38,588 bases of DNA from a virus. Below are positions 26,915 to 37,456 of this stretch, in pieces (position 1 is the stretch's first letter; each line of letters begins with the position of its first letter). The notes beneath the pieces were generated by a model. It was not told the DNA's origin, made no database searches, and saw only the letters and a list, made by a program, of their open reading frames with translations. Where the stretch lies: positions 1 through 38,588 of IMG/VR virus record IMGVR_UViG_3300001450_000006; one strand, given 5' to 3'. The position numbers were made by a program, and so were the translations under genes.

Positions 26915-27304
26915 ATGCAGACATTCTTACCATACGAGGACTTTGAAGCCAGCGTAGAGGCATTAGATTATCGAAGACTAGGGAAGCAGCGAGTGGAGGC
27001 GAGACAGATACTCAAGGCCCTAGAGACAGGCGGAGGATGGAGTAATCACCCAGCGACCAAGATGTGGGCAGGATACACGAATGCATTAAAACACTATAGT
27101 AATGTATGTATCAAGGAGTGGATCAGCAGAGGTTACAACAACACTATGGTATGCTTAGACACCGCATGTATAATATATCCTTGGTGGCTAGGCGGTGAGA
27201 TACACACCACACACCGCGCGGCATTGCTACATAAAGATCCAGCGTTCTACGGAGAGTATGAATGGACAGAGAGTCCAGAGTTAAATTACCATTGGCCTAT
27301 ATAG
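26915..27304 (+). CDS. MSMEG_6728 / pyrimidine-dimer glycosylase-related protein (129 aa)
   Basis: The sequence has the hallmarks of the small MSMEG_6728-type family, related to T4 endonuclease V-like (DenV) annotations: start MQTFLPYEDFEASVEALDYRRLGKQRVEA, then GGGWSNHPATKMWAGYTNALKHY, then a C-terminal HTTHRAALLHKDPAFYGEYEW segment and a final YHWPI. Members are found in many phages and bacteria and are thought to act in DNA repair or processing, though function is mostly untested. Length 129 aa fits the family. It has its own promoter and ribosome site and heads a run of small genes. Confidence 0.82.
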   Translation: MQTFLPYEDFEASVEALDYRRLGKQRVEARQILKALETGGGWSNHPATKMWAGYTNALKHYSNVCIKEWISRGYNNTMVCLDTACIIYPWWLGGEIHTTHRAALLHKDPAFYGEYEWTESPELNYHWPI

Positions 27305-31737: not shown

Positions 31738-33144
31738 ATGCCTGAATTCATGCCTCAAGAAGATGATGCTCATGTGTTAGCAGAAATGGCTACACATGAC
31801 GACATCAGATCCATAGATCCTTTTGAGATAAAGACTCCAGCCATGCGGCAACGCAAGGAGTTCGCACCAGCGAAACTCAAAGAACTAGCGAATAGCATCT
31901 ACGAAGTAGGTCAGATACAGCCTATTGTAGTAGACTCGAATTTCGTACTAATCGCAGGTGAGCGTAGACTTATGGCTATCAAGTCCATACTCCAAAACCG
32001 TGAAGCCTACGAGAACTGGAAAGATTTCGAACACGTAAAGATCTCGATCATAGACCCCACAGATGACTGGCACCGACATACCATAGAACTCCAAGAGAAC
32101 ATTAAGCGTGAACCATTGACTCCTGCAGAAGAATCTCGTGCTGTCGATGATTACGAGCGTTTGATGGAGAAACTCAAAGGTAAGTCTAAGCGAGGCATGG
32201 GAGCAGTCGAAGGTGGTCACTCACAAAAAGACACGGCTAAGGATCTCAACATGTCCCAAGCCAGCGTAAGTGATCACCGTAAGGTAGCGCGTGTACTAGA
32301 CATAGCTCAACACATCCCAGACCTAGCAGACCTCGAGAACGAGACATCAAAGAGCGGCATCCTAGGCAAGTTCAAGGCATACAAGGTCAAGGAAATACGT
32401 GCCGAGATAGCCCGTAGAGCAATGGAATCCCATAGGCAAGACCTAGAGGGAGTAGTAGTCCTAAGTGATGCCTTAGACTTCCTCGATACACTAGAAGAAG
32501 AAAGTGTAGATCTAGTGCTAACCGATCTACCCTTTGGCATAGAGGTCTTCGACTCGAACACACTAGCCAAATCCTCACACGGCACCCAATGGCAGGACGA
32601 CGAGGAATCCATCAAGGCATTCGTACAACAGCTAATCCCTAAGTTGTACCTAGCCCTGAAGCCTAACGCCCACATGTGGATATTTAGCTCCTGGATAGAG
32701 ACATTCTGGATCGAACGTGCATGTACCTTGATTCCAGACCTAGAGTTCGAATACCCACCTTGGATATGGAACAAGGTAAAATCCACTCCTGCAATCAATG
32801 GAGCTGCCACAGGTGATCAAACCTATGAGTATATCTGCCATCTACGTAAGGGTACTGTATCTATGCCCGAACGTCTTGGCCCTAATCTTGTATCATATGC
32901 TAGACCTAGTGCTACTAAGTACCCGACAGAGCGGCCACTAGACATACTAAAGTTCTTCATAGAAAACTGTACCCTTGAAGGCGAGTTAGTAATAGACCCG
33001 TGTTGTGGCTCAGGTGGTCACTTAGTAGCTGCCATACAAACCAACCGTAGAGCTTTAGGCTCAGACATAAACCCTGAAGCAATTAAAGTAACCAAGTCTA
33101 GACTTGTATTGGAGACTTCCTATGAAACAAGCCAAGATACATAG
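31738..33144 (+). CDS. ParB-like domain fused to DNA methyltransferase (468 aa)
   Basis: Residues about 40-125 form a ParB/Srx-type domain: LKELANSIYEVGQIQPIVV, GERR at 74-77 and ELQENIKREPLTPAEE at 118-132. A helix-turn-helix follows at about 161-183 (HSQKDTAKDLNMSQASVSDH). Residues about 240-468 are a DNA methyltransferase with motif IV DLPFG (263-267, a variant of DPPY) and motif I DPCCGSG (420-426), motif IV coming first. Phage ParB-methyltransferase fusions modify phage DNA, probably against host restriction. The site is unknown. It ends overlapping the 82-aa gene. Confidence 0.85.
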   Translation: MPEFMPQEDDAHVLAEMATHDDIRSIDPFEIKTPAMRQRKEFAPAKLKELANSIYEVGQIQPIVVDSNFVLIAGERRLMAIKSILQNREAYENWKDFEHVKISIIDPTDDWHRHTIELQENIKREPLTPAEESRAVDDYERLMEKLKGKSKRGMGAVEGGHSQKDTAKDLNMSQASVSDHRKVARVLDIAQHIPDLADLENETSKSGILGKFKAYKVKEIRAEIARRAMESHRQDLEGVVVLSDALDFLDTLEEESVDLVLTDLPFGIEVFDSNTLAKSSHGTQWQDDEESIKAFVQQLIPKLYLALKPNAHMWIFSSWIETFWIERACTLIPDLEFEYPPWIWNKVKSTPAINGAATGDQTYEYICHLRKGTVSMPERLGPNLVSYARPSATKYPTERPLDILKFFIENCTLEGELVIDPCCGSGGHLVAAIQTNRRALGSDINPEAIKVTKSRLVLETSYETSQDT

Positions 33145-33404: not shown

Positions 33405-35804
33405 ATGGGAGGGGATCTCAAGTTGGACCTAATGGTCCAGTCAAAAACCAAGTGCCTTAGAAAGCGAGACGCATACATGAATATACAACCAGATGGTGCA
33501 GAAGACGCGCAGATTGTAATCATAGGAGAGTCACCATCCAAAGATGATATTATCTCTGGAGTGCCATTCTCAGGATCTCAAGGAGAATTATTATTCGATG
33601 ATATATTAGCCCGTGCAGGTATCTTCCGCAAGGATTGCTTGGTGCTACATACCTATACCAAGCAAGCTCCTGGGAATAAGCTAGACATAGTAAGTGATCC
33701 CTTCGAGCGTAGTGCGGAACACTGGAAGCTTATACAAAAACACCCTCGTAAGTTAATCATAGCAGTAGGTGAGTACGCACTTAGATTCTTGTGTAACGAG
33801 TCGGGTATTACTAAATGGCGTGGGTCGTTGTTGTATTCTAACAGAGGAAAAATCCCTGTTATACCTATGATCGCTCCTGTAAGTATCATACGCCAGTATT
33901 CTTGGTTGGTACTTTGCCGTAAGGATGCACTAAAAGCCAAGCGTGTGCTGACGGATTTTGATTCCATCGTAGACCACAAGCGTACCATAGTACACTACGG
34001 CCAGATCAAGAAAGATCACGCCACCGAGGAGTCAGGTCTCATAACAAAAATCCTCATAGAAACCCTTAAGTCATATCACGATGCCCCATGTCTGGCGTTT
34101 GACATTGAGACATATGCAGAATGCATAACATGCATAGGAGTCGCTAGGTCTGCTACTGAAGCCGTAGTGATACCGTTTACTACACACCTAAGCCACGAGG
34201 ACAGGATAGCACTCATACGAGAGCTTAACATACTCCTTAGTAATAATGCCTTAAAGGTAGGGCAGAACTTGGATTACGATGCCCAGTACCTAGCTAAGAA
34301 CTTTGGTATATGTGTACGTAACGTATGGATGGACACTATGGTTGCACATTCGGTAATGCATCCCGAGATGGGTCATAGCCTAGACCTCCTAGCATCCATA
34401 TACACCAATAAGAACTTCTATAAGGAAATGCGTAAAGAAGCAACCAGTGGTAATTATAACAATACCTTATGGGAATACAATGGTATAGATTGTTGCGTTA
34501 CGTATGAGGTAGCAGTAAAACTCTCACATGAGTTAATATCTACACATGCATGGGAGTTCTTTCACAATGTAGCCATGCCAGTGACTAAGACATTGATTCG
34601 CATGGAACATAAAGGAGTACACATAGATGAAAATCTTAGGTCGAAACGCAAAGAAAGCCTTAGCAACGAAATGGCTGATCTGCTTGCCGATGATGCTTTG
34701 TGTGGGGTTAATCCTAACAGTCCTAAACAGGTGCTGGACTACTTCAAGTCCAAAGGAGTTCGACTGCCCATAAGTAGAGGCCGTAAAACAGCATCCACGG
34801 ACGTGCATACACTTAAGCTCCTACGTCCTAGACAGCCTAAGCACCATGCGTTCATAGACAAGTGTTTAGCAGTACGTGACAGACGTAAGATCATAGGAAC
34901 GTATCTTGAAGCCAAGGTACACAAAGACGGTAGAATGCGCACATCGTATCGTACATCAGCTACAGACACAGGTCGTATATCCAGCTCCAAGGATGTGTTT
35001 AATAAAGGTATGAATCTTCAAAATATCCCAGGAGATCAGCGTGATTGGTTTGTGCCAGACCCAGGTCTAGTGTTCTGGGAAGCTGATGGATCACAGATCG
35101 AGGCTCGCATAACAGCCTACGTAGCAGGGGATGTGAACTACAAACAGGGCTTCATAGAAGGCAGGGATATTCACAGCGAGAACGCTATAGCTTTGTTTAA
35201 AATCCCAGCGAGTGATGTGCGTAATCCCGTAGTAGGCACACACTACACATACCGTGACATAGGCAAGAGGGCTTCACATGCGATCAACTACATGGTAGGT
35301 CCAGGTAAGCTCAAGGATCTTATGAACGAGTACGTGCCTAATATGAAGTTCTCGCTTAACGATGCCCGTAGGTTCATAGACAGCTTTAAGACTCTAAGAC
35401 CTGGCATACATAAGTGGTGGATCAGCACCATACAACACCTCAAGACTAATCGTGTGATGCGTACACCCTATGGCCGACAAAGAGTGTTTTTAGATCGTTG
35501 GGGTGATCAACTCCATAGGGCTGCTGTAGCATTTGTACCACAGTCCACCGCGGCAGATCATATCAATGCTGCATTAGCTCGTATAGAACTTAGGCTAGAA
35601 TCCCTACCTGAAGCATCTGTTTTGCTTCAGGTCCATGATTCCGTAGCAGGCCAATGCAAACCAGAGGATCTGGAACATGTCCGTAGTATCGTATGTGAAG
35701 AAATGGAGAAGCCTATACCAAAGGGGTTCGGGTATTACTGGGAAGATGAGCTAGTAATTCCTGCAGACTTTGCCTCTGGATCTAACTGGAAGTCTTGTAA
35801 ATAA
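33405..35804 (+). CDS. polA: UDG-like domain fused to family A DNA polymerase (799 aa)
   Basis: Residues 1-190 resemble a family 4/5-type uracil-DNA glycosylase: GESPSKDD at 41-48 and GVPFSGSQG at 52-60. The cluster Cys are mostly missing, and the usual HP motif is APVSII at about 157-162, so this domain is probably inactive. Residues 228-380 are the 3'-5' exonuclease (D233/E235, N288/D292, Y358/D362). Residues 390-799 are the polymerase, with motif A DGSQIEAR (D561), the O-helix KRASHAINYM (H625, Y629) and motif C QVHDS (D745). It is the replicative polymerase. Phage SPO1 has a similar fusion. Start 33405 has AGGAG upstream. Confidence 0.9.
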   Translation: MGGDLKLDLMVQSKTKCLRKRDAYMNIQPDGAEDAQIVIIGESPSKDDIISGVPFSGSQGELLFDDILARAGIFRKDCLVLHTYTKQAPGNKLDIVSDPFERSAEHWKLIQKHPRKLIIAVGEYALRFLCNESGITKWRGSLLYSNRGKIPVIPMIAPVSIIRQYSWLVLCRKDALKAKRVLTDFDSIVDHKRTIVHYGQIKKDHATEESGLITKILIETLKSYHDAPCLAFDIETYAECITCIGVARSATEAVVIPFTTHLSHEDRIALIRELNILLSNNALKVGQNLDYDAQYLAKNFGICVRNVWMDTMVAHSVMHPEMGHSLDLLASIYTNKNFYKEMRKEATSGNYNNTLWEYNGIDCCVTYEVAVKLSHELISTHAWEFFHNVAMPVTKTLIRMEHKGVHIDENLRSKRKESLSNEMADLLADDALCGVNPNSPKQVLDYFKSKGVRLPISRGRKTASTDVHTLKLLRPRQPKHHAFIDKCLAVRDRRKIIGTYLEAKVHKDGRMRTSYRTSATDTGRISSSKDVFNKGMNLQNIPGDQRDWFVPDPGLVFWEADGSQIEARITAYVAGDVNYKQGFIEGRDIHSENAIALFKIPASDVRNPVVGTHYTYRDIGKRASHAINYMVGPGKLKDLMNEYVPNMKFSLNDARRFIDSFKTLRPGIHKWWISTIQHLKTNRVMRTPYGRQRVFLDRWGDQLHRAAVAFVPQSTAADHINAALARIELRLESLPEASVLLQVHDSVAGQCKPEDLEHVRSIVCEEMEKPIPKGFGYYWEDELVIPADFASGSNWKSCK

Positions 35805-35831
35805 CACATGCCATTGGAGGGGTTGGGAGCT

Positions 35832-35944
35832 GGGGAGTCTCTTATTGTACATATCAGATGTTGGGCCTGGATAGTCCAGGTCATATGTACAACTGTAGGA
35901 ACCATAGGGAGTACCTACAGACTCCTCCTTTGGCTTAAAAGGAG
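35832..35944 (+). ncRNA. Candidate riboswitch-like three-helix junction in 5' UTR
   Basis: The 146-base gap after the polymerase can fold with P1 35832-35839/35920-35927 (8 bp). P2 is 35845-35854/35883-35892 (10 bp, perfect), continued by 35864-35871/35875-35882 after a 9-base bulge (one U-G, tri-loop TAG). P3 is 35893-35899/35914-35920 (7 bp). P2, P3 and P1 abut with no bases between; only J1/2 (35840-35844) is single-stranded. The 3' side of P1 overlaps CTCCTTT (35925-35931), which pairs with AAAGGAG (35938-35944), the ribosome site of the next gene. The two foldings exclude each other. I recognise no known class. Confidence 0.55.
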
Positions 35945-35950
35945 AAAGCT

Positions 35951-36163
35951 ATGCATATCCATATCAAGAACAGTGTAGAAGATAACGTAAGCGTGTATGA
36001 CTCAGACAATGACGACAGCGTAGTAATAGCAATACTAGACGATAGTATCGTAACTGCGATTGTGTTAGACCTAGCCCATGAGTCAGCAGTTAAGTTACAC
36101 TCTGAACTAAGCAAGCTTTTACAAGGCTACCAGCCTCCTGAAATAGAAGTAATATCGGAATAA
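35951..36163 (+). CDS. Hypothetical acidic protein, 70 aa, downstream of RNA element
   Basis: This 70-aa protein is acidic: MHIHIKNSVEDNVSVYDSDNDD, strand VVIAILDDSIVTAIVLDL, helix SAVKLHSELSKLLQGY and an acidic end. It looks like a small alpha/beta fold. Its ribosome site (AAAAGGAG, 6 bases to ATG) can be hidden in the 35925-35944 hairpin, so translation is probably controlled by the RNA upstream. It is followed after 24 bases by the helicase. No family recognised. Confidence 0.66.
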   Translation: MHIHIKNSVEDNVSVYDSDNDDSVVIAILDDSIVTAIVLDLAHESAVKLHSELSKLLQGYQPPEIEVISE

Positions 36164-36187: not shown

Positions 36188-37456
36188 ATGCTAGAAGAAT
36201 CCTCACTAGGGTCAGAAAAGGAATACCAAGATGATTTTATTGACTTATATCTTGACTACACTAAAGGTCAAGAATCGCCAAGGGACTTTCATTTCTGGAC
36301 AGCTGTAAGTCTGATAAGTGGAGCTGTAGGGAGAAAGATATGGCTTCCACGCGGACATGACATGCTATACCCAAACCACTATGTGATACTCGTGGCAGGT
36401 TCAGCGATGAGCCGTAAGAGTAGTGCTATAAACATAGGGGTAGGATTACTTAGACGAGCGACACAAAACAAAATAGACTCAGGATTAACGCACGGCATAA
36501 GCACAATACTATCAGGTAAGATGACTCCAGAGGCATTGTGCAGGGCTATATCAAGTCGTGGTCTAGAAGGTATGCTAGAGACAGACGCTAAGCCTATAAT
36601 AGCAGACCAAACCTCTAGACCATGTTATTTGTTTAGTTCCGAACTAGGTGTGTTTTTATCCAAAGCCGCGCAATCTAACGGTCTTGTGGATTTACTCATA
36701 GACTGGTATGATTGCCCAGACGTATTTGAATACATAACTAAAACATCAGGATCGGATTATGTCTATGAGGTCTTTATATCGTTACTCAGTGCAACGACTC
36801 CAGACTGGATCGCTCAAAACGTCACGTCGTCTGTGTTCAACCAAGGGTTCGTGGGTAGGGTCATATTTGTGCACAGTGAGCGGTCTGGTATTCGTATTGC
36901 TCATCCTGTGGTGGATAGCGTCTTAGAAAAACTCCGAGATAGGTTAGTCACTCATATAGAGCATCGTATGGGTATGGAGGGTGAGATGGAACTTACCAAA
37001 GATGCGTGGGATTACTTCGAGGCATGGTATAACAAACGCGAGGAACTCCCAGGGTTAGACAATGTACAAAGTGGGTTCTTTGGACGGGAGCATACACATG
37101 TGTTGAAGTTAGCTATGACGTTTTCGATCGCCAGACGTAGGACACTCAAGATCCATGTAGTGGATATACAAGATGCGATTGATAAGATCGCACATACATT
37201 TGATGGCTTAACTTCTATCTTCAAGGAGGTCAGGTATGCTAATGAGATATTTGAAACTAAGATCGTAGAAGGTATAATCAAAGACGCGAAAACCATAGAT
37301 AGATCTACACTACTACGCAATGTCTACCGTAAGATGAACAAGGATAAACTAGACGAGTGCTTGAGTATACTTAAAGCAGCAGGTGTAATAAACGAAGACG
37401 TTAAGACACGTAAAGGTGGGGGCCGCGCTAAGGTCACATACACCTCAACTCAATGA
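36188..37456 (+). CDS. Replicative helicase-like ATPase, DUF3987 type (422 aa)
   Basis: The protein follows the DUF3987 pattern: DFIDLYLDYTKGQESPRDFHFWTAVSLIS at 16-44, a basic strand GRKIWLPRG, then PNHYVILVAGSAMSRKSSA. The P-loop at 71-78 is G-SAMSR-KS, with Arg where the family often has Gly before Lys. The middle contains a Walker B-like strand. The C-terminal 80 residues are likely a winged-helix (TLLRNVYRKMNKDKLDECLSILKAAGVINED). DUF3987 proteins replace DnaB-type helicases or primase-helicases in many phages. I see no separate primase in the window. Ribosome site AGGAAGG. Confidence 0.72.
   Translation: MLEESSLGSEKEYQDDFIDLYLDYTKGQESPRDFHFWTAVSLISGAVGRKIWLPRGHDMLYPNHYVILVAGSAMSRKSSAINIGVGLLRRATQNKIDSGLTHGISTILSGKMTPEALCRAISSRGLEGMLETDAKPIIADQTSRPCYLFSSELGVFLSKAAQSNGLVDLLIDWYDCPDVFEYITKTSGSDYVYEVFISLLSATTPDWIAQNVTSSVFNQGFVGRVIFVHSERSGIRIAHPVVDSVLEKLRDRLVTHIEHRMGMEGEMELTKDAWDYFEAWYNKREELPGLDNVQSGFFGREHTHVLKLAMTFSIARRRTLKIHVVDIQDAIDKIAHTFDGLTSIFKEVRYANEIFETKIVEGIIKDAKTIDRSTLLRNVYRKMNKDKLDECLSILKAAGVINEDVKTRKGGGRAKVTYTSTQ

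Follow-up and report, generated by a model that had tools for sequence, protein, structure and literature searches.

The locus and its genes

The window, by which we mean the whole stretch of DNA analysed, is a virus record of 38,588 bases whose replication genes lie on the + strand and whose head and packaging genes lie on the − strand. The element described here occupies a gap of 146 nt between the gene of a family A DNA polymerase and a small gene encoding a 70-aa protein, which is followed in turn by a DUF3987 gene. The polymerase (33405–35804) comprises, according to Pfam, a UDG-like N-terminal domain (PF03167), a 3'–5' exonuclease (PF01612) and a family A polymerase domain (PF00476); its stop codon, TAA at 35802–35804, lies 5 nt 5' of the first helix of the element, P1. 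The features of the region are as follows:

33405–35804, + strand: DNA polymerase gene (799 aa; PHROG 17), upstream of the element
35810–35823, + strand: 5' strand of helix P1, GCCAUUGGAGGGGU, purine-rich; in the minimum-energy fold of all homologues and in covariance models R1 and R2
35824–35844, + strand: hairpin P2, loop CUGGGGAG, with the first GGGGAG site at 35832–35837; compensatory change in 5 of 8 pairs, GGGA exposed
35845–35892, + strand: long hairpin P3; compensatory change in 8 of 9 outer and 4 of 6 inner pairs
35893–35920, + strand: hairpin P4 (CUGUAGG...CCUACAG), with the second site, GGGAG at 35907–35911, in its loop; covariation and site exposure
35921–35934, + strand: 3' strand of P1, ACUCCUCCUUUGGC, pyrimidine-rich and complementary to the ribosome site as well; covariation
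35925–35944, + strand: competing anti-SD hairpin CUCCUUU-GGCUUA-AAAGGAG, 7 bp, which excludes P1; −9.3 kcal/mol in the window
35939–35944, + strand: ribosome site AAGGAG, at near-constant spacing in relatives
35951–36163, + strand: gene of the 70-aa acidic protein (MHIHIK...), to which no function is assigned; found only together with the element
36188–37456, + strand: DUF3987 primase/helicase-like gene, downstream of the 70-aa gene

The uracil-DNA-glycosylase-like domain spans residues 30–166 of the polymerase and is fused to the 3'–5' exonuclease and family A polymerase domains. Elsewhere in the window, positions 31738–33144 encode a ParB N-terminal domain fused to an N6/N4 DNA methyltransferase, and a DNA repair gene of the early region (26915–27304) encodes a pyrimidine dimer DNA glycosylase (Pyr_excise, E = 4e-22).

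A four-helix cloverleaf fills the gap

The whole gap folds as a four-helix cloverleaf (35810–35934) in which P2, P3 and P4 meet at a junction closed by P1, with zero unpaired bases in the window. P1 consists of 12 bp with a UU/UU loop (35810–35823/35921–35934), P3 includes a 5' asymmetric internal loop (35855–35863) and an inner helix (35864–35882), and P2 and P4 each expose a loop of the GGGGAG type. P1 is followed on its 3' side by UUAAAAGGAG and then by the ATG. Measured against dinucleotide shuffles, the stability of the window's cloverleaf corresponds to z = −5.0, with 0 of 200 shuffles as stable, and the folds of the six relatives tested in this way lie between z = −3.4 and −7.4.

The initial annotation had described positions 35832–35944 as a three-helix junction with exactly abutting helices. 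Two of its helices are right, as is their abutment at 35892/35893: the one that it called P2, ending at 35892, is the true P3, and its P3 (35893–35920) is the true P4. The junction of the window has four helices, however, and the closing helix was misplaced. The pairing proposed for it (35832–35839, GGGGAGUC, with 35920–35927) displays no compensatory changes across relatives, and 88.0% of its cells are paired compared to 88.0% in shuffles and 90% when the strands are slid by +3 columns. Its 5' strand is in reality the exposed loop of P2, a hairpin that had been overlooked, and its 3' strand forms part of the 3' strand of the true P1, the 5' side of which (35810–35823) lies outside the region annotated.

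Homologues and co-inheritance with the 70-aa gene

Polymerase searches of viral contigs yielded nine loci extending beyond the polymerase end (L001–L009), and the homologue set, including the window, consists of 10 phage contigs, all IMG/VR virus records, in three clades: the window with L001–L003, L005–L007 with L009 (L005 and L006 being almost identical), and L004 with L008. All nine loci possess the 70-aa gene and have the same fold as the minimum-energy structure of the gap, with stabilities of −42 to −61 kcal/mol across members. P1 has 12–13 standard pairs in every homologue, and its inner part retains a purine-rich 5' strand and a pyrimidine-rich 3' strand despite sequence change. It starts 1–10 nt after the polymerase stop codon in all homologues and ends 3–6 nt before the AGGAG core in 10/10, the core in turn being 5–6 nt from the ATG; for the window itself, the distances are 5 nt from P1 to the start of the core and 6 nt from its end to the ATG. 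L004 and L008, the only members with a three-way junction, represent a shorter form of 83–88 nt that lacks a separate P2 hairpin and has a GGGA site placed in the bulge on the 5' side of P3, so that two GGGA sites are still exposed.

The element occurs once per contig; additional copies were sought elsewhere in the window and in 14 related contigs, and none was found. Searches of bacterial and archaeal genomes with the polymerase and with the 70-aa protein gave no relatives, and scanning viral contigs for a pattern of the polymerase C-terminus added no contig. Viral contigs were also scanned for a twin TGGGGAG pattern combined with AAGGAG, and none of the 28 matches folds into a cloverleaf, most of them resembling coding sequence.

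Element and 70-aa gene always co-occur. Both are missing from a sister clade that has the same gene order, DUF3987 proteins 52–60% identical, a small gene of another kind and a gap that is unstructured; nor do three further relatives, cultured or deposited, have such a gap or gene. This joint presence and absence among relatives indicates that the two were gained or lost together. Homologues that keep the gene and lose the pairing, which the initial annotation had named as evidence against the structure, were not encountered: the fold accompanies the gene in 10/10 homologues, and there are no instances of the gene without it. Relatives of the 70-aa protein were sought in phages, genomes, Pfam and the PDB, and none appeared beyond the element-bearing contigs; its predicted structure has a mean pLDDT of 70 and a pTM of 0.37, and only a helix at residues 31–57 is confident.

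The fixed position bears on whether the RNA acts in cis. A compact domain of ~85–125 nt with twin identical loops and one copy per contig might be expected of a small RNA that is cut from the mRNA and acts in trans, such as a component resembling a packaging RNA or a sponge that takes up a host RNA-binding protein. We consider this very unlikely, as the fixed spacing to the SD and the joint loss with one gene point to cis action, and the region has no promoter-like site.

Covariation identifies the + strand RNA as the selected molecule

A covariance model built from L005, L006, L007 and L009 (R1) recovers L001, L002, L003 and the window with E-values of 2.6e-12 to 1.8e-10, its only other hits being mirror images of its own members; the window element was found without other input at E = 1.8e-10. 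In the alignment obtained from the R1 matches, 95.9% of pair cells are standard and 25 of 40 pairs display compensatory (both-side) changes; no shuffle reaches the observed value, and sliding the strands by 1–3 columns leaves 36–51% paired. Because this 40-pair alignment leans to the model, we applied a second test in which the 3' columns were re-paired at random with relatedness kept. None of 5000 re-pairings reaches the observed values, with 307 standard cells compared to a mean of 133 and 70 double-change cells compared to 9.5. Each clade by itself has pairs with compensatory changes (12 and 4), and these hence do not reflect one single event. The search for covariation among relatives that had been proposed at the outset gives a strong signal for the cloverleaf and none for the closing helix of the initial annotation.

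A second model (R2), built from all eight four-way members and run without filters, returned L004 and L008 as top matches at exactly the expected gap (E = 7e-6 and 6e-4). With default filters they were not reported, probably due to the absence of P2.

The same alignment discriminates between the strands. A G-U pair on the + strand corresponds to an A-C mismatch on the − strand, and the + strand contains 28 G-U cells and 0 A-C cells, which implies that the + strand RNA is the molecule under selection; this is the mRNA strand of both flanking genes. The model score is 94 bits on the + strand and 17 bits on the − strand. These values have to be set against a DNA-level role, as a replication origin or as inverted repeats bound by a protein, for which one could cite the location among replication genes, the similarity of the inverted repeats on both strands and the fact that the − strand folds too. 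The strand test excludes that role for practical purposes, and we regard it as extremely improbable. A covarying structure on the coding strand and a fixed position directly upstream of one gene with which it is co-inherited are two marks of cis-regulatory structured mRNA leaders, and both are found here. Comparison of the homologues, with strong covariation, thus supports the assignment of the element as a conserved structured RNA leader abutting the ribosome site of the 70-aa gene.

A pair of GGGGAG-type sites persists as the scaffold changes

In 9/10 sequences a pair of GGGA sites is exposed, typically as CUGGGGAG, and the loop sequences among members are CUGGGGAG, CUCGGGGAG, UUGGGAG or AUAGGGAG. 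The exception is L003, where the P2 loop has drifted to GGGUAG, and the first site is therefore not absolutely required. The starts of the two sites are 69–74 nt apart in the four-way forms and 37–39 nt apart in L004 and L008. The retention of two GGGA sites through the change between four-way and three-way scaffolds hints at which part of the RNA selection keeps, and identical twin loops on differently shaped scaffolds suggest a protein that grips two sites. Only in the window's clade could a G-quadruplex form via GGAGGGGUUGGGAGCUGGGG, so it is not a general feature.

The twin loops point more to a bound protein than to a small-molecule ligand. In a small-molecule riboswitch the P3 internal loop and the junction would serve as the ligand pocket and P1 with the anti-SD hairpin as the expression platform of an on-switch. 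The junction does lie beside the SD with a mutually exclusive anti-SD hairpin, and the internal loop has a related sequence among the four-way members (AAUAUG in 6/8, AUAUG in L007 and AUGUU in the window). Near-invariance is the rule for aptamer cores, however, whereas here the window has a differing internal loop, AGAUGUU, and L008 and L004 have GGGGAG or AUGGGACA in its place; the downstream gene suggests no metabolite and no Rfam riboswitch matches, all of which makes a riboswitch quite unlikely.

A constitutive intergenic RNA that senses nothing, serving in mRNA protection or processing or in holding the pyrimidine strand off the SD, would account for the way in which the element fills the whole gap, from 1–10 nt after the polymerase stop to 3–6 nt before the SD, and for its very high stability. 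It leaves unexplained both the conservation of twin GGGGAG sites on changing scaffolds and the joint travel with the 70-aa gene, and we hold it to be unlikely.

The ribosome site and a proposed translational switch

The 7-bp hairpin over AAAGGAG (35925–35931/35938–35944) that the initial annotation had put forward is able to form by folding. The corresponding anti-SD pairing is possible in 10/10 homologues, with energies of −2.3 to −9.3 kcal/mol; the hairpins are strongest in the window and in L004 (−7.7 kcal/mol) and weak in L008 (−2.3 kcal/mol) and L001–L003 (−3.3 kcal/mol). The pairing is moderately conserved, with 81% of cells paired compared to 47–67% when slid, and any pyrimidine-rich P1 strand would pair with the SD to some extent. 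Folds truncated so as to begin at the 3' strand of P1 have the SD 76–100% paired in 10/10, and in the full-length fold it is predicted to be partly open (0.2–0.7 unpaired).

A closed P1 probably equates to an open ribosome site. Once P1 opened, its pyrimidine-rich 3' strand would be at liberty to pair with the ribosome site and hide it. The earlier proposal that a closed junction frees the site and an open one hides it is retained in this altered form, operating via the true P1 and not via the helix first drawn. The balance between P1 and the anti-SD hairpin would be shifted by a putative trans-acting factor, most likely an RNA-binding protein reading both GGGGAG sites, which would act as at the translational operators of phages and bacteria. 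A scan of early genes found no known RNA-binding regulator. A simpler, factor-free trigger may be the ribosome itself, which on ending at the polymerase stop would cover the first P1 bases in most members, if only for a brief action.

Structure, strand, position, co-inheritance and twin loops emerge directly from the comparison, and from them we infer regulation. On these sequence-based grounds there is about an even chance that the element, as a structured part of a polycistronic mRNA, acts in cis to control translation of the 70-aa gene via a putative factor at the two GGGGAG sites. This reading predicts recognition of the twin GGGGAG loops by a regulator, and a DNA-phage replication operon that contains a translational switch.

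Comparison with known RNA elements

The window has no Rfam matches at gathering thresholds. A relaxed search of the element gave one sub-threshold match, to freshwater-2 (17.7 bits compared to a threshold of 49.9), and the six homologous loci searched, at relaxed E-values too, gave nothing relevant. ARAGORN detected no tRNA or tmRNA genes in the window. An intrinsic terminator was rejected, there being no U-tract after P1; the single + strand match of a terminator scan within the element, at 35907–35926, is a different hairpin with the tail CCTTTGGCTT.

The Guanidine-II (mini-ykkC) riboswitch also has two hairpins with identical loops upstream of the SD; the present element matches no Rfam model and differs from it in its closing P1, its long P3 and its GGGGAG loops.

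Leaders targeted by CsrA/RsmA share with the element two GGA-containing exposed loops near the SD, an arrangement in pairs that suits a dimeric protein. In the CsrA consensus, RUACARGGAUGU, GGA is invariably preceded by ACA, and its hairpins contain few base pairs (PMC7652899); the reported distance between two sites is 10–63 nt. In contrast, the loops here are of the CUGGGGAG type; the sites are 69–74 nt apart in the four-way forms, beyond that range, and 37–39 nt apart in L004 and L008, within it. The ACA before GGA (ACARGGA) is missing from the loops, and a CsrA/RsmA target was rejected on this difference in sequence.

The operators of gene 43 (DNA polymerase) and gene 32 in T4 and RB69 resemble the element in being structured RNA in the mRNA of phage replication genes, near a ribosome site and with a protein as reader, here a putative one. 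The T4 gp43 operator is one hairpin of 16–18 nt with a UAAC loop in front of its own gene, and that of gene 32 is a pseudoknot (PMC3014915), whereas here a cloverleaf with GGGGAG loops follows the polymerase and precedes an unrelated small gene. An operator of the gp43 type was rejected on this position after the polymerase gene and on loops that differ from the UAAC type.

Similar in kind, too, are the orphan cis-regulatory RNAs of metagenomes and phages, covarying structured RNAs upstream of phage genes that were found by comparison, such as manA and wcaG in cyanophages (PMC2864571); unlike these, neither the window nor the six homologous loci match any Rfam model. A search of the open-access literature found no such element described. 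The kind, a cis-regulatory mRNA leader, is known, and the class, as far as we can test, has not been described: a family of structured RNAs that is absent from Rfam, is strongly supported by comparison and occurs in phages that have no cultured close relative. Tentatively, and with rather less than even probability, it may constitute a new class of phage translational operator, in which a four-way (or reduced three-way) scaffold, with the paired display of two GGGGAG sites as its main constant, would serve a putative two-site regulator of phage or host, which exchanges P1 for the anti-SD helix and so times the synthesis of a clade-specific small protein between polymerase and primase.

The small-gene slot in sister phages

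In the sister phages L080–L086 the slot between polymerase and DUF3987 gene (for example L084:2609–2767, upstream of the DUF3987 gene) holds another small gene (MPTNKPYRKISEIEKLHEKIIAEYVEWQ...). The gap here is ~150 nt long and conserved, with AAGCCTTGTTG repeats and with GCATCAACAACGAAAGT just 5' of the ATG. It was considered as a second structured RNA and rejected, folding no better than shuffles in L081–L084 (z = −1.6 to +0.1). The slot between polymerase and DUF3987 gene looks like a site of small-gene exchange.
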